A program made the position numbers and the translations under genes. Shown here one piece after another: positions 43,545-55,923 of a stretch of DNA of 64,000 bases. Source of the DNA: Chitinophagaceae bacterium (GTDB taxonomy: Bacteria; Bacteroidota; Bacteroidia; Chitinophagales; Chitinophagaceae); assembly GCA_022843585.1 (NCBI GenBank), contig JALHNJ010000001.1:1178001-1242000 (forward strand). The letters are read 5' to 3'. Position 1 is the stretch's first letter. Each line of letters starts with the position of its first letter. The notes beneath the pieces were generated by a model that worked only from the letters and a program-made list of their open reading frames with translations, ran no database searches and was not told the origin of the DNA.

Positions 43545-44798
43545 TTAAATTAAATATCCGAACAACTGATCGTTTTTATTTATTTCGGAGAAACCGATAT
43601 TGGAGTTTTCCATTTTTTTCACTAGAAGATCATAGTCGGATCGACACTGCAATTCTACACCTACTAATGCAGGTCCGTTTTCTTTGTTTGTTTTTTGCAT
43701 GTACTCAAAACGGGTAATATCGTCTGTTGGTCCGAGAACATTATTTACAAATTCTTTCAATGCACCGGGGCGTTGAGCAAAGCTGATCAAAAAATAATGT
43801 TTCAATCCTTCGTATTGCAGGCTTCGTTCTTTTATTTCCTGCATACGATCAATATCATTGTTGCTGCCGCTTACGATGCAAACAACATTTTTTCCTTTTA
43901 TCATATCTGCATAATCATCCAATGCAGCTATGGACATAGCACCTGCAGGCTCTACTACAATGGCATCTTCATTGTATAATTTTAGAATGGTAGAACAAAT
44001 TTTTCCTTCAGGTACTAAATGCATATCATCTAGTACATCTTTGCACATAGAGAAAGTAAGATCGCCAACTCTTTTCACAGCAGCACCATCTACAAATCGT
44101 TCAATACTTTTTAATGTAACAGGATGTCCGGCTTTTAATGCTTCAAACATAGAAGGAGCACCTTCTGGTTCGAGGCCAATAATCTTTGTTTTGGGAGAAT
44201 AGGTTTTAAAGTAAGTGCCAACACCAGCACTTAATCCACCACCACCAACCGGGACGAATAGAAAATCTACATCGGGCTGGTCTTCTAAAATTTCGACAGC
44301 AACTGTTCCCTGACCTTCAATAATTCTGTAATCATCAAAAGGAGGAATAAATGTCATGTTGTTTTCTTCAGTAAATTGTTTAGCAGCAATCGCACAATCA
44401 TCAAATGTGTCGCCAACCAGTTTTACGTCGATAAAATGTTCACCAAACATTTTTGTCTGGTTTACTTTTTGGCGTGGAGTTATGATGGGCATAAACACCA
44501 CACCTTTTACATTCAGTTTTTTACAACTATACGCAAAGCCTTGTGCATGATTACCGGCACTGGCACATACGACCCCATTTTGCAACTGCTCAGGGTGCAG
44601 GGAGCTCATCATGTTATAAGCTCCCCGCAATTTATAGGAGCGAACGATCTGCAGATCCTCTCTCTTCAAAAAAACATTGCACTGGTATTTCTTTGAAAGA
44701 TTATGGTTGAACGTAAGTGGTGTTCGGTTCACCACTTTCTTCAATCGCAAATACGCCGACGCAAAATCTAGTTGTACCGTATTATTGATAGTTGACAT
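43545..44798 (-). CDS. ilvA: threonine ammonia-lyase (threonine deaminase)
   Basis: PLP enzyme that makes 2-oxobutanoate, the first step from threonine to isoleucine. 417 residues: catalytic domain with the PLP Lys in RSYKLRGAYNM and phosphate loop GGGGLSAGVG, then one C-terminal ACT-like domain (about 330-417: KHYFLISFAQRPGALKEFVNNVLGP). One ACT-like domain, rather than two as in E. coli IlvA, marks the shorter form; isoleucine feedback may differ. Its ATG overlaps the ilvC stop (TAATG), and it ends the ilv run. Confidence 0.94.
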   Translation of the reverse strand: MSTINNTVQLDFASAYLRLKKVVNRTPLTFNHNLSKKYQCNVFLKREDLQIVRSYKLRGAYNMMSSLHPEQLQNGVVCASAGNHAQGFAYSCKKLNVKGVVFMPIITPRQKVNQTKMFGEHFIDVKLVGDTFDDCAIAAKQFTEENNMTFIPPFDDYRIIEGQGTVAVEILEDQPDVDFLFVPVGGGGLSAGVGTYFKTYSPKTKIIGLEPEGAPSMFEALKAGHPVTLKSIERFVDGAAVKRVGDLTFSMCKDVLDDMHLVPEGKICSTILKLYNEDAIVVEPAGAMSIAALDDYADMIKGKNVVCIVSGSNNDIDRMQEIKERSLQYEGLKHYFLISFAQRPGALKEFVNNVLGPTDDITRFEYMQKTNKENGPALVGVELQCRSDYDLLVKKMENSNIGFSEINKNDQLFGYLI

Positions 44799-45943
44799 TA
44801 TACGATATATTGTTTTTCTTCCACTTCAGTTTTTTGCACCAATTTGGCAAGCACTTCTTTTATTGATGGTGTTGATGCAGCAGATGCACTAGCATTCGGT
44901 TGATTCTCAGGACGCAGACTTCTAACAGTTTTACCCGACTGCCATAATTCACTTTCACGCAACTCTTTTAATTCTTCTTCCAATTTTTCTCTGTAATCAG
45001 CTTTGCTGTTGCTATCAATAGAACGCTGTGATTCTTTTCCAGCAGCAACACTTTCATAGAGTTCGGTAAAAACGGGCTTTGTAGCATCACGGAATTTTTT
45101 CCACCAGTCCAATGCACCACGTTGAGCAGTAGTAGAGCAATTAGCGTACATCCAATCCATTCCGTTTTCAGCAACGAGTGGCATTAATGATTGAGTTAAT
45201 TCTTCTACCGTTTCATTGAACGCTTCAGAAGGAGAGTGACCTTTTGAACGTAAGACATCGTATTGTGCAGCAAAAATTCCTTGTATTGCTCCCATCAATG
45301 TTCCTCTTTCACCAGTTAAATCGCTATATACTTCCTTCTTAAAATCAGTTTCAAATAAATAACCACTGCCTACGGCAATACCTAACGCAACAACTCTTTC
45401 AAAAGCTTTGCCGGTTGCATCCTGGTAAATGGCATAGGAGCTATTTAATCCACGGCCTTGTAAAAACATTCTGCGCAATGATGTGCCAGAACCTTTTGGT
45501 GCAACCAAGAATACATCTACATCTTTCGGAGGAATGATGCCAGTTTGCTCATTGAACGTAACACCAAAGCCATGCGAGAAGTATAATGCTTTTCCCGGCG
45601 TTAAATATTTTTGTACGGTTGGCCACAATGCAATTTGTGCAGCGTCGCTTAACAAATAGCAAATGATAGTTCCTCGTTGTAACGCTTCTTCAATTTCAAA
45701 CAAGGTTTCACCGGGTACAAAACCATCTTTAATTGCTTTATCCCATGTTTTTGAATCTTTACGCTGACCAACGATCACATTGATACCATTATCTCGTTGG
45801 TTCAATGCCTGGCCGGGGCCTTGTACGCCATAGCCAATAACCGCTACTGTTTCATTTTTCAATACTTGTTGAGCTTTGCTCAATGGGAATTCTTCCCTTG
45901 TTACTACGTTTTCTTCAACGCCGCCGAAATTTAGTTTTGCCAT
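44798..45943 (-). CDS. ilvC: ketol-acid reductoisomerase
   Basis: Rearranges and reduces acetohydroxy acids in Ile/Val synthesis; needs Mg2+ and NAD(P)H. 381 residues. The nucleotide motif is VIGYGVQGPGQALN (about 35-48) rather than the usual GYGSQGHAHALN; this variant is typical of the Bacteroidota form. FLVAPKGSGTSLRRMFLQGRG, ETDFKKEVYSDLTGERG (metal ligands) and EELTQSLMPLVAENGMDWMYANCSTTAQRGALDWW in pieces cover the rest. The last about 40 residues are Ala/Ser/Thr-rich and variable. Coupled to ilvA by a 1-bp overlap. Confidence 0.94.
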   Translation of the reverse strand: MAKLNFGGVEENVVTREEFPLSKAQQVLKNETVAVIGYGVQGPGQALNQRDNGINVIVGQRKDSKTWDKAIKDGFVPGETLFEIEEALQRGTIICYLLSDAAQIALWPTVQKYLTPGKALYFSHGFGVTFNEQTGIIPPKDVDVFLVAPKGSGTSLRRMFLQGRGLNSSYAIYQDATGKAFERVVALGIAVGSGYLFETDFKKEVYSDLTGERGTLMGAIQGIFAAQYDVLRSKGHSPSEAFNETVEELTQSLMPLVAENGMDWMYANCSTTAQRGALDWWKKFRDATKPVFTELYESVAAGKESQRSIDSNSKADYREKLEEELKELRESELWQSGKTVRSLRPENQPNASASAASTPSIKEVLAKLVQKTEVEEKQYIV

Positions 45944-45994
45944 TGTTATTTGTTTTTAAATTTATAGTTGTTTTTTTTACGAGATTGTCATTAG

Positions 45995-46585
45995 TTACAT
46001 TGAAAACACTTCTTCTTTTTTATCGAGGAACTCATTCTCTATCGCATCTTCACCCGGTTCCTTGTATTCAAACTCTTTTAATCTTTCATGGAAATCACTG
46101 CTGCCTTTAATGATAGCTACTCTTGCACTTCGGACGAATTCAATCAATCCATAGGGTTCTAATGCTTTTATGAGGTTATCAGTTTCTTCCCGATGCCCCG
46201 TTGTTTCAAAAACAGTATAATCTTTTCGGATAGCCACAGCTCTCGCACCATATTCTCTTAGCAATCTTTCCACTTTCACTTTTTCAGCAATAGCATCTGT
46301 GCTTACTTTGTACAAAGCCAGTTCCTGCCAAACGATCTCTTCTTCGGTATTATAATATGCTTTTAATACTTCTACCTGTTTTTCTATCTGGCGGCAGAGT
46401 TTGCTTACTACATCTTCTATTTCATTTATAACAATAGTAAAGCGGTGTACACTGTCCACCTCAGTAGGAGAGGTGTTTAAACTTTCTATATTGATCTTTC
46501 TTCTGGAGAAGATGATCGCAATACGATTCAGCAAACCGATCTGGTTTTCTGTATAGACTGTTATGGTATATTCTTTCTTTTGCAT
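45995..46585 (-). CDS. ilvN: acetolactate synthase small subunit
   Basis: Regulatory subunit that gives valine feedback and boosts activity of IlvB. 196 residues from the ATG at 46585 (MQKKEYTITVYTENQIGLLN); the frame is open further upstream into the end of ilvB but that part is not family sequence. ACT domain in the first about 80 residues (GLLNRIAIIFSRRKINIESLNTSPTE), second ALS_ss_C domain from about 90 to 165, and an acidic C-terminal tail (GEDAIENEFLDKKEEVF). Immediately downstream of ilvB. Confidence 0.93.
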   Translation of the reverse strand: MQKKEYTITVYTENQIGLLNRIAIIFSRRKINIESLNTSPTEVDSVHRFTIVINEIEDVVSKLCRQIEKQVEVLKAYYNTEEEIVWQELALYKVSTDAIAEKVKVERLLREYGARAVAIRKDYTVFETTGHREETDNLIKALEPYGLIEFVRSARVAIIKGSSDFHERLKEFEYKEPGEDAIENEFLDKKEEVFSM

Positions 46586-46595
46586 TTTTCTTTGT

Positions 46596-48344
46596 TTAAA
46601 TTTCTTCCTTGCATAATACACATTCAGCTACTCCACGCCCCTGCGGTACCATGGGGAATACATTATTTTCTTTTCCTACCATCACTTCTAATAAATAGCT
46701 ACCATGATTGTCCAGCATTTCTTTTAGAGATGATCGTAACTCTTCTCTTTTACAAACAGTTTTCCCTGGAATGTAATACCCTTTTGCCACCTGCACAAAA
46801 TCCGGACTGGTGATATCAACAAACGAATATCTTTTTTCATGAAAGAGTTGTTGCCACTGACGAACCATTCCCAAAAACTGATTGTTGAGAATGATGATCT
46901 TTACATTTGGTTTGAATTGCATGATCGTTCCCAACTCCTGCACTGTCATTTGAAAACCACCATCACCAATGATAGCAACGGTTGTTCTTGAAGGATCACC
47001 ATACGCCGCACCGATAGCAGCTGGCAAAGCATAACCCATTGTACCCAATCCGCCACTTGTTACATTACTTTTCGATTGGTTATACTTTGCATAACGACAT
47101 GCTACCATCTGGTGCTGACCAACATCTGTAACGATGATGGCATTACCCTCTGTTAATTCATTCAATAGTTTTATCACTTCTCCCATGGTGAGTACATCGG
47201 AGGAAGGATCGAGTTCTTCTTTTATTACTTTATCTACTTCTTTTTGTTTGTACTCGTTGAATTTTTTCAACCATTGCGGATATACTTTTTGTTCAATTAG
47301 TTCGGTGAGTAATGGCAATGTCTCTTTACAATCACCCCATACACCTACAGTAGCTTTTACATTCTTATCAATTTCCGAAGGGTCAATATCCAAATGAATA
47401 ACTTTTGCCTGCTTGGCATATTTATCCAAACGTCCGGTTACCCGATCATCAAACCGCATTCCTACAGCGATCAATACATCGCATTCGTTGGTCAATACAT
47501 TTGGTCCATAGTTACCATGCATCCCCAACATGCCAACACCTAACGGATGATCAGTTGGAATGGCACTCATACCCATGATGGTCCATGCAGCAGGGATGCC
47601 GGCTTTCTCTATAAACTTTTTAAATTCTTTTTCAGCTTTACCTAATATCACACCTTGGCCAAATATTACAAATGGTCTTTCTGCTTCATTGATAAGTTTG
47701 GCGGCCTCCTGTATATATTCTTTTCTTACAATTGGTTTTGGGCGATAGCTTCTTATATGATCACATTTGTTGTAACCGCTGTATTCAAATAATTGTAATT
47801 GTGCATTCTTTGTAATGTCAATTAATACAGGACCGGGTCTTCCGCTACCGGCTATATAAAAAGCTTTTGCTAAAACTGCAGGTATCTCCGTTGCGTCTGT
47901 TACCTGATAATTCCATTTTGTAACTGGCGTTGTTATGTTGATCACATCTGTTTCCTGGAATGCATCTGTACCGAGTAAGTGTGCAAATACTTGTCCGGTG
48001 ATACAAACAACAGGAGTGGAGTCGATCATCGCATCTGCCAAACCAGTAACAAGATTTGTTGCACCAGGTCCGCTTGTTGCAAACACAACACCTGTTCTTC
48101 CGCTTACTCTTGCATAACCTTGTGCTGCATGTATAGCTCCTTGCTCATGACGCACCAATATATGTTGTAATTTTTCTTTGTAATCATACAACGCATCATA
48201 GATAGGCATGATGGCACCACCGGGGTAACCAAAGATGGTTTCAACACCTTCAGCAATGAAGGCCTCGAGAACAGCGACACCTCCGCTAACCTGTGTCGGT
48301 GCAGTTGAAGTTTTCTTTTCTTTTTCTAGTGTAAGCGTTTCCAT
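46596..48344 (-). CDS. ilvB: acetolactate synthase large subunit
   Basis: ThDP/FAD enzyme forming acetolactate or acetohydroxybutyrate. About 582 residues from the ATG at 48344 (METLTLEKEKK); an alternative start seven codons upstream would overlap the ilvD stop by 11 bp. Active-site Glu in LVRHEQGAIHAAQGYARVSG; ThDP motif GDGGFQMTVQELGTIMQF with NNQFLGMVRQWQ; FAD region GMLGMHGNYGPN. Full length. Confidence 0.95.
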   Translation of the reverse strand: METLTLEKEKKTSTAPTQVSGGVAVLEAFIAEGVETIFGYPGGAIMPIYDALYDYKEKLQHILVRHEQGAIHAAQGYARVSGRTGVVFATSGPGATNLVTGLADAMIDSTPVVCITGQVFAHLLGTDAFQETDVINITTPVTKWNYQVTDATEIPAVLAKAFYIAGSGRPGPVLIDITKNAQLQLFEYSGYNKCDHIRSYRPKPIVRKEYIQEAAKLINEAERPFVIFGQGVILGKAEKEFKKFIEKAGIPAAWTIMGMSAIPTDHPLGVGMLGMHGNYGPNVLTNECDVLIAVGMRFDDRVTGRLDKYAKQAKVIHLDIDPSEIDKNVKATVGVWGDCKETLPLLTELIEQKVYPQWLKKFNEYKQKEVDKVIKEELDPSSDVLTMGEVIKLLNELTEGNAIIVTDVGQHQMVACRYAKYNQSKSNVTSGGLGTMGYALPAAIGAAYGDPSRTTVAIIGDGGFQMTVQELGTIMQFKPNVKIIILNNQFLGMVRQWQQLFHEKRYSFVDITSPDFVQVAKGYYIPGKTVCKREELRSSLKEMLDNHGSYLLEVMVGKENNVFPMVPQGRGVAECVLCKEEI

Positions 48345-48354
48345 ACTTAATATT

Positions 48355-50040
48355 TTAAGCTTCATCTGTTACACAACCCTGATCGGCTGACTTAACAGAT
48401 CTTGCATATTTGAATAAGATTCCTTTTGTTGCTTTCAATGCTGGTTGTTTCCATTTCTTTCTTCTTGCAGCGATCACATCATCACTTACTTTTAATGTCA
48501 GGGTATTTTTCGTTGCATCAATTTCGATGATGTCATTATCTTCTACTAGCCCAATCAATCCGCCATCAAATGCTTCTGGTGTAATGTGCCCAACAACAAA
48601 ACCATGTGTGCCACCGCTAAATCTTCCGTCAGTGATCAATGCAACGGATTTTCCTAACCCTGCACCAATGATTGCACCTGTTGGTTTCAACATCTCAGGC
48701 ATACCAGGTGCACCTCTTGGCCCGATGTAACGGATCACCACTACATCACCTGCATGCACTTTGCCTGATTGAATTCCTGTGATCAGATCTTTTTCACCAT
48801 CAAACACTCTTGCTGTTCCCTCAAATCGTTCACCTTCTTTACCACTGATCTTTGCAACACTTCCTTTCTCTGCAAGGTTGCCGTACAGGATTTGCAGGTG
48901 CCCCGTCTTCTTCAATGGTTGTTCTAACGGGTGAATAATGTCCTGAGCCTTAAAATCAAGATCCGGAACACCTGCTAAATTCTCTGCCACCGTTTTACCG
49001 GTTACTGTCAAACAATCGCCATGTAATAAATTATTCTTTAATAAATATTTCATCACGGCGGGTACGCCACCATGTTTGTGTAGATCTTCCATCAGGTATT
49101 TTCCGGATGGTTTAAAATCGGCGAGTACAGGGATGCGGTCACTTATTTTTTGAAAATCATCTTGCGATAATTCAACATCAACGCTTTTCGCCATTGCTAT
49201 TAAATGCAATACTGCATTAGTGCTTCCACCCAATACCATAATAACAGTGATTGCATTTTCAAATGCTTTGAAAGTCATAATGTCTTTCGGCGTAATATTT
49301 TTTTCAAGCAATATTTTTATAGCCTCACCAACGGCCGCACATTCTTGTTGCTTTTCTTTACTCAATGCGGGGTTAGAAGAAGAGTTTGGTAAACTCATTC
49401 CCAATGCTTCAATCGCCGATGCCATTGTATTAGCCGTATACATTCCACCACATGCACCGGCACCCGGACATGAATGTTTTACAATTGCTTTAAAATCCGC
49501 TTCACTTAAATTGCCCGCAATTTTTTGCCCCAGTGCTTCAAATGCACTTACGATATTCAAATCTTCACCTTTGTAATGACCTGGAGCAATCGTTCCGCCA
49601 TACAACATGATCGAAGGACGATTCAATCTTCCCATTGCCATCACTGCGCCAGGCATATTTTTATCACATCCCGGTATAGCAATGATGCCATCATAATATT
49701 GTGCCCCTACATTTGTTTCAATGCTATCAGCGATTACATCGCGGCTCACCAAACTGTATCGCATTCCATCCGTTCCCATGCTGATGCCATCGCTTACACC
49801 AATGGTATAAAAACGTAAACCGAGTAAACCTTCAGTTGCGTTCACCGCTTTACGAACAATGTCTGACAAATCATTGAGGTGCATATTGCATGGATTTCCA
49901 TCCCATCCCATACTCACTATACCTACCTGTGCTTTATTAAAATCTTCTTCCTTAAAGCCAATAGCATAATACATCGCCTGCGCTGCAGGTTGTGTAGGGT
50001 CTTGCGTTAATGTTTTTGAATATTTGTTTAATTCAGTCAT
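48355..50040 (-). CDS. ilvD: dihydroxy-acid dehydratase
   Basis: Fe-S enzyme that dehydrates dihydroxy acids in Ile/Val synthesis; 561 residues. Cluster-binding Cys residues lie in [13 protein letters not shown] and [17 protein letters not shown]; the catalytic Ser/Mg region is [29 protein letters not shown] near the N-terminus holds the first Cys. 195 bp after ilvE, with a dispersed element in the gap; 10 bp before ilvB. Confidence 0.95.
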
Positions 50041-50235: not shown

Positions 50236-51129
50236 TTACGCTACTTGCTCTTGCAACTGAAATGGTTTCTCCAATACTTTACATTTATAAGCCTGTTGTA
50301 TTACATAACTCAATGAGTCTTCCCAATTCTTTTTAAATTCTACATTATCCAATGAACTCAGTGCTACTACTTCAGCAGCAGTGCCACAAAAGAAACCAGC
50401 ATCAGCACCTTTCATTTCAGCCGGTGTAAATAATTTTTCCTCAACAGGAATATTTAACTCCTTGCATATTCCAATTACAGTAGCTCTTGTTATACCCGGA
50501 AGAATATTTCCCTTTGGCGCCGTGTATAACACTCCATCATTTTCATAAAAGATATTTGCACCACTGCTTTCTGCTACAAAACCATTGCTATCTAAAACCA
50601 ATGCTTCGTCAAAGCCATTATCTTTTGCTTCCTGGCAGGCAAGAATAGAGTTTACATAATGGCCACTCACTTTTGCATCCACATGAAAAGCATCAGCATT
50701 GGGCCGACGATAACTGGATGTCATAATTTTCATCTTGTTACTCATGTAGCCATTCGTCCATTCCCATGTTTCAATAGCGATATAAGATTCTTTTCCTTTT
50801 GATAAAGCCATGTTAGGAGAACACAGAACGATCGGGCGGATATATGCATCAGTGAAATTGTTTCTCTTCAGCACTTCGTAGGTTAACTCCATTAATTTCT
50901 CAGTGGTATACTCGAATGGTATTCTCATTACTTTGGCTGAATGACGAAGCCTGTCATAATGCTCTTTCCCTTTGAACATTTTTGTACCGCCATTGATAGG
51001 ATAGGAGCGGATACCTTCAAATACTGCATAGCCATAATGCAATGACTGGCTGTACAAATCTGTTTTTGCTTCTGCAGCTTTAACAAATTGTCCATGGAAA
51101 TAGATTACTGTGTTTTCGTTGTAATACAT
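50236..51129 (-). CDS. ilvE: branched-chain amino acid aminotransferase
   Basis: PLP fold-type IV transaminase that makes leucine, isoleucine and valine from their oxo-acids with glutamate as donor. 297 residues: SLHYGYAVFEGIRSYP, RLRHSAKVMRIPF, the PLP Lys in DAKVSGHYVNSILA, EALVLDSNGFVAESSGANIF, and GILPGITRATVIGI are all conserved. First structural gene after the leader peptide and attenuator, so its expression is expected to respond to Ile/Val supply. Confidence 0.95.
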   Translation of the reverse strand: MYYNENTVIYFHGQFVKAAEAKTDLYSQSLHYGYAVFEGIRSYPINGGTKMFKGKEHYDRLRHSAKVMRIPFEYTTEKLMELTYEVLKRNNFTDAYIRPIVLCSPNMALSKGKESYIAIETWEWTNGYMSNKMKIMTSSYRRPNADAFHVDAKVSGHYVNSILACQEAKDNGFDEALVLDSNGFVAESSGANIFYENDGVLYTAPKGNILPGITRATVIGICKELNIPVEEKLFTPAEMKGADAGFFCGTAAEVVALSSLDNVEFKKNWEDSLSYVIQQAYKCKVLEKPFQLQEQVA

Positions 51130-51159: not shown

Positions 51160-51187
51160 AAAAAAACCCGCCTTTTGGAGGCGGGTT
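51160..51187 (-). terminator. attenuator terminator in the ilv leader
   Basis: Minus-strand hairpin with arms of 9 bp (51187-51179 and 51173-51165; AACCCGCCT type) followed by seven T residues (51166-51160), 29 nt after the leader ORF stop and 30 nt before ilvE. The 5' arm can instead pair with the leader ORF's Gly codons (see the antiterminator entry). Confidence 0.88.
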
Positions 51188-51232
51188 GCTGATATTTTTG
51201 GTTTAGTTTTTTATAATCATGCACCACCTCCA
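51177..51232 (-). promoter_or_regulatory. antiterminator pairing of the ilv attenuator
   Basis: Minus-strand RNA UGGAGGUGG (51232-51224, the Asn-Gly-Gly-Gly codons at the end of the leader ORF) can pair over 9 bp, one of them U-G, with CCGCCUCCA (51184-51176) in the terminator's 5' arm and loop. The two structures exclude each other. A ribosome at the leader stop codon (51219-51217) would cover the first strand; a ribosome stalled on the Ile/Val codons would leave it free. Confidence 0.75.
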
Positions 51233-51312
51233 TTTGAAGATATAATAATGACAACCACAATAATTATTGCAGGAATAGAGGCGATGACATTATATATATT
51301 ATTCTTCAACAT
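51217..51312 (-). CDS. ilvL: ilv leader peptide (31 residues)
   Basis: Small ORF read on the minus strand: starts MLKNNIYNVIASIPA, then the run IIIVVVIII (residues 16-24), then SSNGGGA and a TGA stop. Nine of 31 residues are Ile and four Val, the hallmark of ilv leader peptides such as that of enterobacterial ilvGMEDA. The codons in the run are ATA, ATT, GTG, GTT, GTC and ATT, so no single tRNA is favoured. It is followed by an intrinsic terminator and a competing antiterminator, then ilvE. It is expected to act by ribosome stalling. A minor alternative is a single-span membrane peptide. Confidence 0.82.
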   Translation of the reverse strand: MLKNNIYNVIASIPAIIIVVVIIISSNGGGA

Positions 51313-51411
51313 GAAGGATGTATTGTTGTAAATATACACCCGCCGTTTTAAAAAAAGAACTCAGCAAGCAATTTTATTTTTCGAAATGCTAACAATCGTT
51401 TATTATCAGCA

Positions 51412-52536
51412 TTAAATAATCGTTGATTTTCTCAACTCAATATTCTGGGAATTAACAGAACCCGAAACTTTCCCACTTACAAAATCACTTACTAATTCTC
51501 CAATGGTAGAAGTGAAATAAAAATTAACCGGGTCAATATCTTTTGTTACGAACGAATTCATCAATGTCCAGTTCACTGCTTCACGAACAAGATTACCTTC
51601 TTCATGCAGGCCCAGGTATTCCAGCATCATTGCCGCAGAAAGTATAGAACCAATCGGGTTGGCAATATCTTTTCCGGCAGCTTGCGGATACGAACCATGT
51701 ATTGGCTCAAACAAGGCAAGTCCGCCAGTGCCGAGTGATGCAGATGGCAATAATCCGAGTGAGCCGCTAATTACACTGGCTTCATCGCTGATGATATCAC
51801 CAAACATATTTTCCGTAAGGATCACATCAAATTGCTTTGGATTTAGAATGATTTGCATTGCTGCATTATCAACAAACATATAGTCCACTGCAACATCAGG
51901 ATAAAGCGGTGCGATTTCTTGTACAATCTTTCTCCAGAGTCTTGAGGTTTCTAATACATTGGCCTTATCAACTAATGTCAATTTCTTTCTTCTTTCCGGT
52001 TTTTGTGCAAACTGAAATGCTAAATGTGCAATGCGTTCAATTTCTTGCCGGGTATAAGTACATTCATCAGTTGCTTGTGATCCATCAGCAGCGGTTTCTT
52101 TTTTGCCAAAATAAATACCACCGGTTAATTCACGGAAAATGATAAAATCAACTCCCTCTATATTCTTAGCTTTTAACGGGGACAAATGAAAAAGAGAAGA
52201 ATATGTTTTTATGGGGCGGATATTAGAATAAAGTTGTAATGATTTGCGCAACTTTAATAATCCTTGCTCTGGTCTTACTTTGGCAGTAGGGTCATTATCA
52301 TATTTTGGATGACCGATAGCACCAAATAAGATTGCATCGCTGTTCAAACACACTTCTATTGTTTCATCTGGTAGTGGGTTGCCAGTTTTGTCAATAGCAT
52401 CCGCACCCATCAGGCAATAGGTGTATTCAAATTCATGATTGAAATGTTCCGCTATCGCATTTAAAATGCGGATAGATTGTTGGGTTACTTCCGGACCGAT
52501 TCCGTCGCCTTCTATTACTGCAATTTTCTTTTTCAT
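51412..52536 (-). CDS. leuB: 3-isopropylmalate dehydrogenase
   Basis: NAD-dependent oxidative decarboxylation of 3-isopropylmalate, third step of leucine synthesis. 374 residues: VIEGDGIGPEVT at the start, LLKLRKSLQLYSNIRP, RELTGGIYFG with the substrate Arg, and ENMFGDIISDEASVISGSLG with the metal Asp residues. Full length. Last gene of the leu run, followed by the ilv promoter/leader region. Confidence 0.96.
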   Translation of the reverse strand: MKKKIAVIEGDGIGPEVTQQSIRILNAIAEHFNHEFEYTYCLMGADAIDKTGNPLPDETIEVCLNSDAILFGAIGHPKYDNDPTAKVRPEQGLLKLRKSLQLYSNIRPIKTYSSLFHLSPLKAKNIEGVDFIIFRELTGGIYFGKKETAADGSQATDECTYTRQEIERIAHLAFQFAQKPERRKKLTLVDKANVLETSRLWRKIVQEIAPLYPDVAVDYMFVDNAAMQIILNPKQFDVILTENMFGDIISDEASVISGSLGLLPSASLGTGGLALFEPIHGSYPQAAGKDIANPIGSILSAAMMLEYLGLHEEGNLVREAVNWTLMNSFVTKDIDPVNFYFTSTIGELVSDFVSGKVSGSVNSQNIELRKSTII

Positions 52537-52542
52537 GGTAGT

Positions 52543-53130
52543 TTATGCTCTTTGGGTTTCGAATTGTTGTATATCTTCTTTTATGCTGATTAAGTAATCA
52601 ATATCATCATAGCCGTTTAGCAGGCATGTTTTTTTGTAACTGTTTATGTCAAAACCTTCGCTTTCGCCAGTGGAATTAATAGTAATAGTTTGTTTCTCCA
52701 CGTCAACAGTCAGCTCTGTATTATTATCCTGTAAAAAAATACGTTGTAAAAACTCATCGCTAACCTGTACTGGCAATACACCATTGTTCAATGCATTGTT
52801 TTTAAAAATATCTGCAAAGAAACTTGACACCACAACCCTGAATCCGTAATCCAAAATTGACCAGGCCGCATGTTCTCTTGAAGAACCGCAACCAAAGTTT
52901 TTTCCTGCCACCAATATCTCTCCATCAAATTGCGACATATTCAACGGAAAGTCTGCTCTTGTTTTGGACTCATCGTCATTATAGTAACGCCAATCTCTGA
53001 AAAGATTTTTACCAAAGCCGTCTTTCGTTGTTGCCTTCAAAAAACGGGCAGGAATTATCTGGTCAGTATCGATATTTTCGATATTGATGGGAACAAAACG
53101 GGACTTTACTATATTTAGTGGTTTGGACAT
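52543..53130 (-). CDS. leuD: 3-isopropylmalate dehydratase small subunit
   Basis: Swivel-domain subunit of isopropylmalate isomerase, 195 residues. [16 protein letters not shown] at the start and [22 protein letters not shown] are the family signatures. It pairs with LeuC, encoded 23 bp upstream. Confidence 0.96.
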
Positions 53131-53153
53131 TCTTAATAAATAATTATTACTTG

Positions 53154-54554
53154 TTAATTCAATAGTTCTCTAACATCTGTTACTACTCCGGTAATTGCCG
53201 CTGCTGCTGCCGTTAAGGGGCTTGCCAATAATGTTCTTGCACCGGCACCTTGTCTTCCTTCAAAATTTCTGTTACTTGTACTGATACAATATTTGCCAGC
53301 TGGAATTTTATCTTCATTCATTCCCAAACATGCAGAACAGCCGGGTTGACGCAATTGAAATCCTGCTTCTTCAAAAATTTTATCAATGCCTTCTTCTATT
53401 GCCTGTGCTTCTACTTGTTTACTTCCCGGAACAATCCATACTTCCACATCATCGGCTTTCTTTTTTCCTTTTACAAATGACGCTACCATTCTCAGATCTT
53501 CTATTCTTGAATTGGTACAGCTGCCGATGAATACATAATCAATTTTCTGTCCTTTAATATTAGCTCCTTGCTCTAATCCCATATAGGCAAGGGATTTTGC
53601 TAAACCTGATCTGTCATTCTCATTGATGGTTTCAGTAGTTGGGATTGTTTCAGTAACACCAATTCCCATTCCCGGGTTAGTGCCATAGGTTATCATCGGC
53701 TGAATATCTTCTGCCTGGATAAAAATTTCTTTATCAAAATTTGCATCGGCATCAGAATACAGTTCTTTCCATTCGGATAATTTTTTATTCCATTCAGCTC
53801 CTTGAGGTGCAAATTTTCTTCCTTTGATATAGTCAAATGTTGTTTCGTCCGGTGCTATCAATCCGCAACGGCCACCCATTTCAATACTCATATTGCAAAT
53901 GGTCATTCTAGCTTCCATACTTAAAGAACGGATCGCAGAACCTGCAAATTCTACTGCATAACCTGTTGCACCACTTGCAGTGATCTGTGATAATATATAC
54001 AGTACAATATCTTTTGATACTACACCTTTATTCAATTCGCCATCAATTGTTATACGCATCAGTTTTGGTTTGCTCTGCAACAAACATTGCGATGCAAAAA
54101 CCATTTCCACTTCGCTGGTGCCAATACCAAATGCAATAGCACCAAATGCACCGTGTGTGGATGTATGGCTATCACCGCAAACGATCGTCATTCCCGGTTG
54201 TGTAACACCCAACTCAGGTCCTATAACATGAACAATGCCCTGGAACGGATGTCCAAGGCCATATAATTCAATACCATGTTCTGCGCAATTTTGAATTAAC
54301 GCTTCTACCTGTTTTCGGCTCAGTTCTTCTTTAATAGGCAAATGCTGATTTAGGGTAGGTACATTATGATCAGCCGTTGCAACAACTTGTTGTGGCCGCA
54401 ATACTTTTATTCCTCTTTTATTCATACCGGTAAAAGCCTGCGGGCTGGTTACTTCGTGAATAAAATGTTTGTCAATGTATAGAACGGAGGGACCATCGTC
54501 AATTGTTTTAACGATATGCGTATCCCAGATCTTTTCGAATAATGTTTTTGGCAT
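53154..54554 (-). CDS. leuC: 3-isopropylmalate dehydratase large subunit
   Basis: Aconitase-family [4Fe-4S] enzyme, 466 residues from the ATG at 54554 ([21 protein letters not shown]). The frame runs 54 nt further upstream, but that part is dispersed-element sequence and should not be annotated as protein. Cluster Cys residues: [13 protein letters not shown] and [35 protein letters not shown] is the family block. Forms the isomerase with LeuD. Confidence 0.95.
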
Positions 54555-54568
54555 TTTTATTTTTTGTT

Positions 54569-54702
54569 TGTCATCGCCTGTACTACTTTCATCACCGTTG
54601 CGTCGCACTCTTCATCGTTCTGTTCGCTACTCAGCAACCCACCCCGATTTCCTAAAGCAATGTATTTTTCTAAGTTCACCCCTCCAGGGAGGGGTGAACT
54701 TA
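54569..54702 (-). repeat. dispersed element copy 6 (extended form) with 15-bp stem
   Basis: Contains GTTGCGTCGCACTCTTCATC, GTTCTGTTCGCTACTCAGCA and the CAACCCACCCC block. It ends in a perfect stem (54671-54685 / 54688-54702, TAAGTTCACCCCTCC type). It lies in the leuA-leuC gap. No T-run follows on the minus strand, so it is not a simple terminator. Confidence 0.8.
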
Positions 54703-54753
54703 AAGTATTTAGTTTCCCTACTCCTTTTCTCTTTAACTCCCTAACCTCTTAGC

Positions 54754-55923
54754 TTAGGCTACTACTGCATTAGTCTGGTGCTGTTTTCCCATAGTCTGCA
54801 AGTCTCCGTCCTCTACTTCTTTTTTACTATCTGCTACCCGTAAAAATTCATTATATAAAACATCTACATCATTTCTGTCAAACTGGAAGCCCAGTTTTTG
54901 AAAACGATAAGCTAATGCACTGCGTCCGCTTCTGGCAGTCAATACAATTTTAGAACTATCAGCACCCACTTCTTCCGGGTTGATGATTTCATAGGTCAAA
55001 GCATCTTTCAAAAATCCATCCTGATGAATACCTGATGAATGAGAGAAGGCATTGCTGCCAACAATTGCTTTGTTTGGTTGTACCGGCATACGCATCGTAT
55101 CAGATACAATACGACTAAGCGGATTCAATTGCTTTGCATTAATATTTGTGTGCAGACCTAAATGTTTATGTTGCTTAATGATCATCACCACTTCCTCGAG
55201 AGATGTATTACCAGCTCTTTCGCCCAATCCGTTAATGGTACATTCAATTTGTCTTGCACCGGAAATAACTCCTGCAATAGAATTAGCGGTTGCTAATCCC
55301 AGATCATTATGACAATGGCAAGAAATAATTGCCTTATCAATATTTGAAACATTGTTAACGAGGTAAGCAATCTTTTCTCCGTATTGATATGGCAGGCAAT
55401 AGCCAGTTGTGTCTGGAATGTTTACTACTGTGGCACCAGCTTTAATAACTGCCTCAATAACCTGTGCCAAATAATCGTTGTCTGTTCTTCCTGCATCTTC
55501 TGCATAAAATTCTACATCATCAGTAAAATTTCTTGCCCACTTCACACATTGAATGGCTCGTTGTAAAATATCTTCTCTTGTTGAATTAAATTTTGACTTG
55601 ATATGAAAATCAGAAGTACCGATGCCGGTATGTATGCGGGGACGAACTGCATACTTCAGTGCCTGTGCCGCCACTTCAATATCTTTTTGCACCGCACGGC
55701 TCAATCCGCAAACCGTCGCATTTTTAATAGCTTTTGAAATTTGTGATACTGATTCAAAATCACCGGGAGATGAAATAGGGAAACCAGCTTCGATGATATC
55801 AACACCAAGTTCTTCCAATTGAAGAGCCAGTTCTAATTTCTCGTTCGTATTGAGTTTACAACCGGGCACCTGTTCGCCGTCACGAAGGGTGGTGTCAAAA
55901 ATGTGGACTTTTCCTTCTGCCAT
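54754..55923 (-). CDS. leuA: 2-isopropylmalate synthase, short form
   Basis: Condenses acetyl-CoA with 3-methyl-2-oxobutanoate, the committed step to leucine. 389 residues: [16 protein letters not shown] at the start, [17 protein letters not shown] with metal His residues, and [17 protein letters not shown]. The protein stops at about the end of the linker domain (RYRFQ-like [11 protein letters not shown] region); the about 120-residue C-terminal leucine-binding regulatory domain of long LeuA is missing. Leucine feedback at the protein level may therefore be weak or absent. First gene of the leu run, divergent from the 56135 gene. Confidence 0.92.

Follow-up and report, generated by a model that had tools for sequence, protein, structure and literature searches.

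The two described leaders closest in design to the locus examined here come from Escherichia coli: ivbL, which precedes ilvBN and joins a Val-run leader peptide to a terminator, and ilvL, which precedes the ilv operon ilvXGMEDA and carries a mixed Leu/Val/Ile run ending in VVVIII. A 2010 paper stated that, until its own work, no attenuator of this kind had been demonstrated beyond the Proteobacteria and Actinobacteria (PMC2965389). Within the Bacteroidota, the accessible portions of the respective papers assert leader-peptide attenuation for amino-acid operons of Flavobacterium psychrophilum (PMC9723704), mention short ORFs reminiscent of leader peptides in Bacteroides thetaiotaomicron (PMC7366714), and list the Bacteroid-trp motif (RF01692) as a Bacteroidetes cis-regulatory candidate (PMC2864571). 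The F. psychrophilum leaders share both phylum and proposed mechanism with the present locus; the searched part of that text contains no "ilv", and its attenuation passage gives neither a sequence nor a structure (PMC9723704). Two leader ORFs in series, as in the flavobacterial relatives described below, are reported in the excerpted text on the tandem attenuators of mgtCBR, which control a Mg2+ transporter operon, unlike the branched-chain amino-acid operon considered here (PMC3641672).

Here, we analyzed a window of 64,000 nt from a Chitinophagaceae bacterium, in which an initial annotation had proposed a complete attenuator ahead of an ilvEDBNCA run. Comparison with relatives and folding calculations indicate that the locus is very likely a ribosome-mediated transcription attenuator upstream of ilvEDBNCA.

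Results

Layout of the leader region

The candidate attenuator sits between leuB (51412-52536, minus strand) and ilvE, and its elements are listed in Table 1. Direct reading and translation confirmed the 31-codon leader with its IIIVVVIII run, and Pfam places the six ilv genes downstream in the order that the initial annotation had given. The leader ORF is separated by 29 nt from the terminator hairpin, which folds alone at -14.9 kcal/mol (z -4.4) and is followed by the seven T residues, as had been claimed. The 9-bp alternative pairing proposed at the outset proved exact, with z -6.5 for the 2:3 duplex against shuffled versions of region 2, and the segment spanning regions 2 and 3 has a folding energy of -20.4 kcal/mol (z -5.0), making it more stable than the terminator. 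Region 2 consists mostly of Gly codons, which, as the initial annotation noted, would serve as both peptide and antiterminator.

Table 1. Coordinates of the predicted attenuator elements and neighboring genes within the window
Feature	Coordinates	Strand	Basis
Leader peptide ORF, 31 codons, MLKNNIYNVIASIPAIIIVVVIIISSNGGGA*	51217..51312	minus	sequence read directly and translated
Control codons IIIVVVIII	51241..51267	minus	translation of leader
Region 2, predicted antiterminator 5′ strand UGGAGGUGG, mostly Gly codons	51224..51232	minus	pairing computation
Region 3, predicted antiterminator 3′ strand, also terminator 5′ arm and loop	51176..51184	minus	pairing computation
Intrinsic terminator hairpin (regions 3:4) AACCCGCCU-CCAAA-AGGCGGGUU, 9 bp	51165..51187	minus	folding
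U run, seven	51160..51166	minus	sequence read directly
Possible region 1, 13 bp with 51234-51222	51274..51286	minus	folding; partial conservation
Promoter-like -7 box TATATTTA	51329..51336	minus	family alignment and Bacteroidetes consensus TAnnTTTG
ilvE (Aminotran_4), first gene under putative control	50236..51129	minus	Pfam
ilvD, ilvB, ilvN, ilvC, ilvA, putatively controlled operon in that order	43545..50040	minus	Pfam
leuA-like (54754-55923), leuC, leuD, leuB upstream	51412..55923	minus	Pfam

Upstream of the leader, 25 of the 33 aligned family units carry a box of the strict form TATATT[TC][GA], and 31 of the 33 carry the looser TAnnTT[TC][GA]. This box matches the Bacteroidetes promoter consensus TAnnTTTG, which the available part of its source places at -12 to -5 (PMC9723704). 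From the position of the box and this placement, we infer a transcription start near 51324, ~12 nt ahead of the leader; the initial annotation had named a start downstream of 51312 as evidence against attenuation, and the box stands upstream of the leader. An additional element, GGCGGGTG, occupies 51344-51337 immediately 5′ of the -7 box, and elements of this type precede the box in 17 of the 33 family units. It shares GGCGGGT with the 3′ arm of the terminator and could pair with CCCGCC solely in transcripts begun further upstream.

As for the neighboring leu genes, the leuA-like gene (54754-55923, minus strand) encodes HMGL-like and HCS_D2 domains, and no leader or terminator was seen by eye upstream of it. 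The LeuA_dimer family has zero matches across the whole genome of the window, and feedback by leucine may thus be absent or take another form. From leuB to the leader, the minus strand has no listed terminator-like site.

Conservation at ilvE loci

Relatives were fetched with the IlvE protein, yielding 29 loci, to which same-family genomes (20 of 60 with such an ilvE) were added; the nearest named relatives mostly bore the label Chitinophagaceae. We found an Ile/Val/Leu-run leader followed by a terminator at 41 of the 49 ilvE loci (window included), with a total of 47 units, while 8 loci lacked any unit. Scanning 300-nt ilvE upstreams revealed a unit in 42 of 50 real sequences, a count in which the window appears twice (as itself and as L001), versus 1 of 1,000 dinucleotide shuffles. 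The leaders of L017 and L018, identical to those of L035 and L036, were kept in the 49-locus and 47-unit counts and in the swap and shuffle tests and left out of the 33-row alignment, the 45-unit folding sets, and the covariance model.

The antiterminator scored z < -2.5 against shuffled region 2 in 43 of the 47 units and lay above this value in the other 4. With its own partner, region 2 pairs with region 3 at a mean of -18.5 kcal/mol in Chitinophagaceae-type units (n = 35) and -15.0 kcal/mol in flavobacterial-type units (n = 12), and swapping region 2 across lineages weakens the pairing to a mean of about -10 kcal/mol, which suggests that each terminator fits the antiterminator of its own lineage. 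Swaps inside the family carry a small cost (-17.3 versus -18.5 kcal/mol). Within the family, regions 2 and 3 vary hardly at all and 2:3 covariation over the 33 family rows is weak; RNAalifold recovered the terminator alone from these rows, and on the shorter model-building alignment it also returned a 6-bp hairpin within the Ile/Val run.

A covariance model built from 33 family units extended the comparison to 83 family matches (E ≤ 0.01). Of these, 80 were parsed automatically, and the other three leaders, with GTG or TTG starts, were found by eye; the automatic scan likewise located a terminator in 80 of the 83. The antiterminator z lies below -1.65 in all 80 parsed units and below -2.5 in 76 of them. 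Over the 83 rows, 84.8% of the 744 cells preserve the 2:3 pairing, a level that none of 300 shuffles reached, while slid registers leave 47-64% of cells paired. Compensated pairs occur in L157 (GGAAGUGG with CCACUUCC; the identical pair was seen by eye in L168) and in L131 (GGAAGUG with CGCUUCC). Over the same 83 rows, after exclusion of four weak antisense rows of A3, 15 double-change cells were observed versus 7.5 expected from shuffles. However, the register slid by -1 yields 17 such cells and 44 of 300 shuffles contained at least as many doubly changed pairs, so the support appears to reside in the pairing and not in covariation alone. The initial annotation had predicted that alignment across the family would show all elements kept with compensating changes: ORF, complementarity, and hairpin are indeed kept together, along with some compensating changes.

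As for spacing, 12-13 nt separate the last run codon from the first paired base in 59 of the 80 units (9 nt in the window), a distance that fits the front edge of a ribosome, given the size of the ribosome footprint.

Distribution in the family and the phylum

The model matches 83 of 146 family genomes, and IlvD is present in 104 of the same 146. Leader and IlvD occur together in 82 genomes, the leader only in 1, IlvD only in 22, and neither in 41, so that the leader is found in 82 of 104 IlvD-containing versus 1 of 42 IlvD-free genomes (p 5e-19, with kinship between genomes ignored). In 79 of the 82 genomes, ilvD comes after the leader on the same strand at a distance below 1.7 kb (below 260 nt in 24), suggesting that the leader follows the operon rather than one particular first gene. 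Judging from these counts, the unit appears to be common to most examined relatives having ilv genes.

Across 296 genomes of the phylum, a stricter search detected the leader in 20, of which 6 belong to the family of the window; at 18 of these 20 loci, a homologue of ilvE, ilvD, ilvN, or ilvA lies downstream. The two exceptions are L080, where the next ORF resembles an aspartokinase by eye, and L066. The latter, in the family genome G004, is a complete leader and terminator unit located ~510 kb from ilvD, and the sequence after it in the locus contains no ilv homologue; the ilvE of G004 is without a unit of its own. Three weak extra model matches in the genome of the window (L062, L063, and L064; E 0.1 to 1) were rejected, as none has an Ile/Val leader when correctly oriented.

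Flavobacterial variants and sister leaders

Flavobacterial relatives display the same design with different sequences, e.g., GUGAGAAGG with CCUUCUCAC in L022. Some of them have tandem units before ilvE, two in L022, L026, L030, and L033 and three in L029 (-428 to -38), and some first units of a tandem have weak antiterminators (z -1.2 in L022.1 and -1.5 in L030.1). Family f5 is probably Flavobacteriaceae, as it contains an 83% match to the Winogradskyella ilvE. Since IlvE was found in only 5 of 119 f5 genomes, IlvD, present in 91 of the 119, was used as the probe, and 90 upstreams were counted after exclusion of the contig-end locus L263 (61 bases). At least one unit was present in 54 of the 90 and two units in 11, versus 1 of 90 for the antisense control; a laxer run limit gave 56 of 90 versus 5 of 90 antisense. 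The antiterminator has z < -1.65 in 55 of the 65 f5 units and not in the other ten.

The genome of the window also contains leaders of this kind before other amino-acid genes. The hisG leader (L111, 1211-1318), MTTYTHNHHHFLLSTSRP, has an HNHHH run, a terminator, and an 8-bp antiterminator (z -2.6), and the trpE leader (L112, 1255-1441), ending in IWWWHTTLRGL, has a terminator and an 8-bp antiterminator with z -4.5 and reaches 36.3 bits with Rfam Trp_leader (gathering score, 41). In L265 of the same genome, a GTG-start frame ending in KSTTTTTTTTR* was seen by eye before an aspartokinase/homoserine dehydrogenase ORF at 786; its stop codon lies inside a 7-bp hairpin, ACAACCC-GUUAA-GGGUUGU, without a U run, making it a candidate Thr leader.

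Computed switch

Switching was computed with the region 4 strand unexposed and with the ribosome footprint masked codon by codon. In 42 of 45 units (30 of 33 family-type and 12 of 12 flavobacterial-type), antiterminator probability averaged over the run exceeded 0.7 and dropped below 0.3 once the ribosome was at the stop codon; the window gave 0.96 and 0.20. The model thus bears out the earlier proposal that a ribosome at the stop codon would mask the antiterminator and that a stall in the run would free it. Among the controls, five of seven E. coli leaders stayed within the same limits, and trpL moved in the right direction, with 0.59 in the run and 0.00 at the stop.

Once the transcript is complete, equilibrium folding favors the terminator despite a stalled ribosome, with a mean probability of 0.5 or more in 43 of 45 units and near 1 in most of these. 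The same holds for six of the seven E. coli leaders, all of them proven, and whole-leader equilibrium folding was therefore rejected as a switch test because it does not discriminate. With the terminator winning even under a stall, the decision in this model must be kinetic, as it is in the textbook account of attenuation in the consulted part of PMC1183508.

Four of the six tested hallmarks of attenuators of the trpL/hisL/ilvL kind were found here and none failed: a short ORF with a codon run for amino acids produced by the operon, an intrinsic terminator ahead of the first gene and behind the leader, an antiterminator and a terminator that are mutually exclusive, and, by computation, an antiterminator freed by a run stall and masked by a ribosome at the stop. 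For the other two, a protecting region 1 and a promoter ahead of the leader, the window offers candidates in its partly conserved 1:2 helix and the -7-like box.

In the proposed mechanism, RNA polymerase would initiate ~12 nt ahead of the leader ORF with a ribosome trailing, i.e., with transcription and translation coupled. In the presumed starvation response, a shortage of charged Ile-tRNA or Val-tRNA would stall the ribosome within the nine Ile/Val codons, and its front edge would halt before the Gly codons and leave them free. Once transcribed, the 5′ arm and loop of the terminator would immediately pair with these free codons, whereupon the terminator could not nucleate and polymerase would read through into ilvEDBNCA. 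With Ile and Val plentiful, the ribosome would reach the stop codon and cover the Gly-codon strand, the terminator would form, and transcription would end at ~51160.

Comparison with E. coli leaders and Rfam families

In the same computation, ivbL resembles the window in having an antiterminating default, with P(2:3) of 1.0 without a ribosome, 0.96 with a stalled one, and 0.00 at the stop; this likeness is one of design, and unlike here the ivbL run lacks Ile and the operon differs. The ilvL switch, unlike that of the window, is not reproduced by the simple fold model (0.70 in the run and 0.77 at the stop). Without a ribosome, P(2:3) is 1.0 for ivbL, 0.97 for ilvL, 0.42 for thrL, 0.32 for leuL, and 0.00-0.01 for trpL, hisL, and pheL. 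With ivbL and ilvL behaving likewise, the simpler layout described in the initial annotation would not be new.

Against Rfam, the ilv leader stays below the gathering score for both Trp_leader RF00513 (31.3 of 41 bits) and Phe_leader RF01859 (36.4 of 55 bits), and a search of the window and the loci of eight relatives returned nothing at the gathering score except tRNAs in one locus. RF01692, which we take to be a trp leader, has no match at the ilv or trp leader of the window's genome.

Alternative explanations

The most probable alternative retains attenuation and adds a region 1 of the classical type, in which case a leader left untranslated would terminate according to the four-region logic of trp; we regard this as possible, at somewhat less than an even chance. 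The window itself offers a 13-bp 1:2 helix (51286-51274 with 51234-51222) of -20.9 kcal/mol, comparable to the antiterminator stretch, with z -3.0 to -3.7, and as region 1 is transcribed before region 3, kinetics would favor it. Elsewhere the picture is mixed: 1:2 z falls below -1.65 in one third of the 45 units, but the mean is only -0.9, and double changes affect 9 of 16 pairs in the 33 family rows, but this number was reached by 58 of 500 shuffles. Moreover, 1:2 is paired in only 63% of cells in the 33 rows (reached by 10 of 500 shuffles), and the ribosome-free leader prefers 2:3 at equilibrium in 41 of 45 units. Region 1 may therefore be real in close kin of the window and absent elsewhere. 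The initial view that no separate region 1 is needed agrees with the 2:3 preference, which holds for equilibrium only, and is put in doubt by the partly conserved helix of the window.

Two further readings concern the antiterminator strand and the terminator. Bacteroidia ribosomes lacking bS21 may reportedly regain Shine-Dalgarno (SD) recognition. The antiterminator strand GGAGGUGG is an SD sequence too, and such ribosomes could bind it and force termination, a scenario that we consider improbable and that, if true, would tie ilv expression to ribosome state in addition to Ile and Val. Bacteroidia ribosomes normally hide the anti-SD, according to the accessible part of PMC9976891. The leader could therefore afford an SD-like antiterminator strand. 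In the window, an AUG 6 nt behind GGAGG opens a five-codon ORF, but the alignment revealed that this AUG is not kept across the family. Slightly less probable still is that the hairpin is the ordinary terminator of the upstream leuACDB operon, next to a short ORF arising by chance, with ilv unregulated. The hairpin does lie ~225 nt past the leuB stop and would also end leu transcripts, but the three elements (leader, antiterminator, and terminator) are conserved as a set, including their spacing and some compensated changes, the unit persists in the 24 genomes where it lies less than 260 nt before ilvD, and shuffled upstreams yield it just once in 1,000.

That the leader ORF encodes a small membrane protein conserved near ilv genes, with the RNA pairing incidental, is very improbable. 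The run is hydrophobic and 31 residues could span a membrane, but in the 80 family units the ten-residue stretch that closes with the run is composed of Ile (50%), Val (36%), Leu (5%), and Phe (0.3%), with Ile and Val together at 87%, and a membrane helix is expected to differ from this composition. The flanking leader residues drift whereas the RNA pairing persists, and the sister leaders of the same genome carry HNHHH and WWW. Equally improbable is a different sensor (a T-box, a riboswitch, or a Rho-dependent leader) driving the terminator, in favor of which nothing was found, as no Rfam family, T-box included, reaches the gathering score within the window and the sub-threshold matches at the leader are Phe_leader, Trp_leader, and one weak isrF sRNA.

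Discussion

The attenuator proposed here is ordinary in kind and apparently new in place, and the comparison with relatives supports it well as a real regulatory unit. The initial annotation was fair in calling such leaders little described in this phylum, with the qualification that they have already been asserted for flavobacterial amino-acid operons, in the part of PMC9723704 available. No ilv attenuator of Chitinophagaceae, Bacteroidetes, or Flavobacterium was among the literature matches listed, which covered literature outside subscription journals.

The pairing and the genome counts make it very probable that a family of the Bacteroidota controls its branched-chain amino-acid operon through peptide-leader attenuation. 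The phylum initiates translation without SD sequences, as stated in the excerpted part of PMC6847099. Leaders of this type are compact, testable switches, and they would give a direct readout of the tightness of transcription-translation coupling in the phylum.
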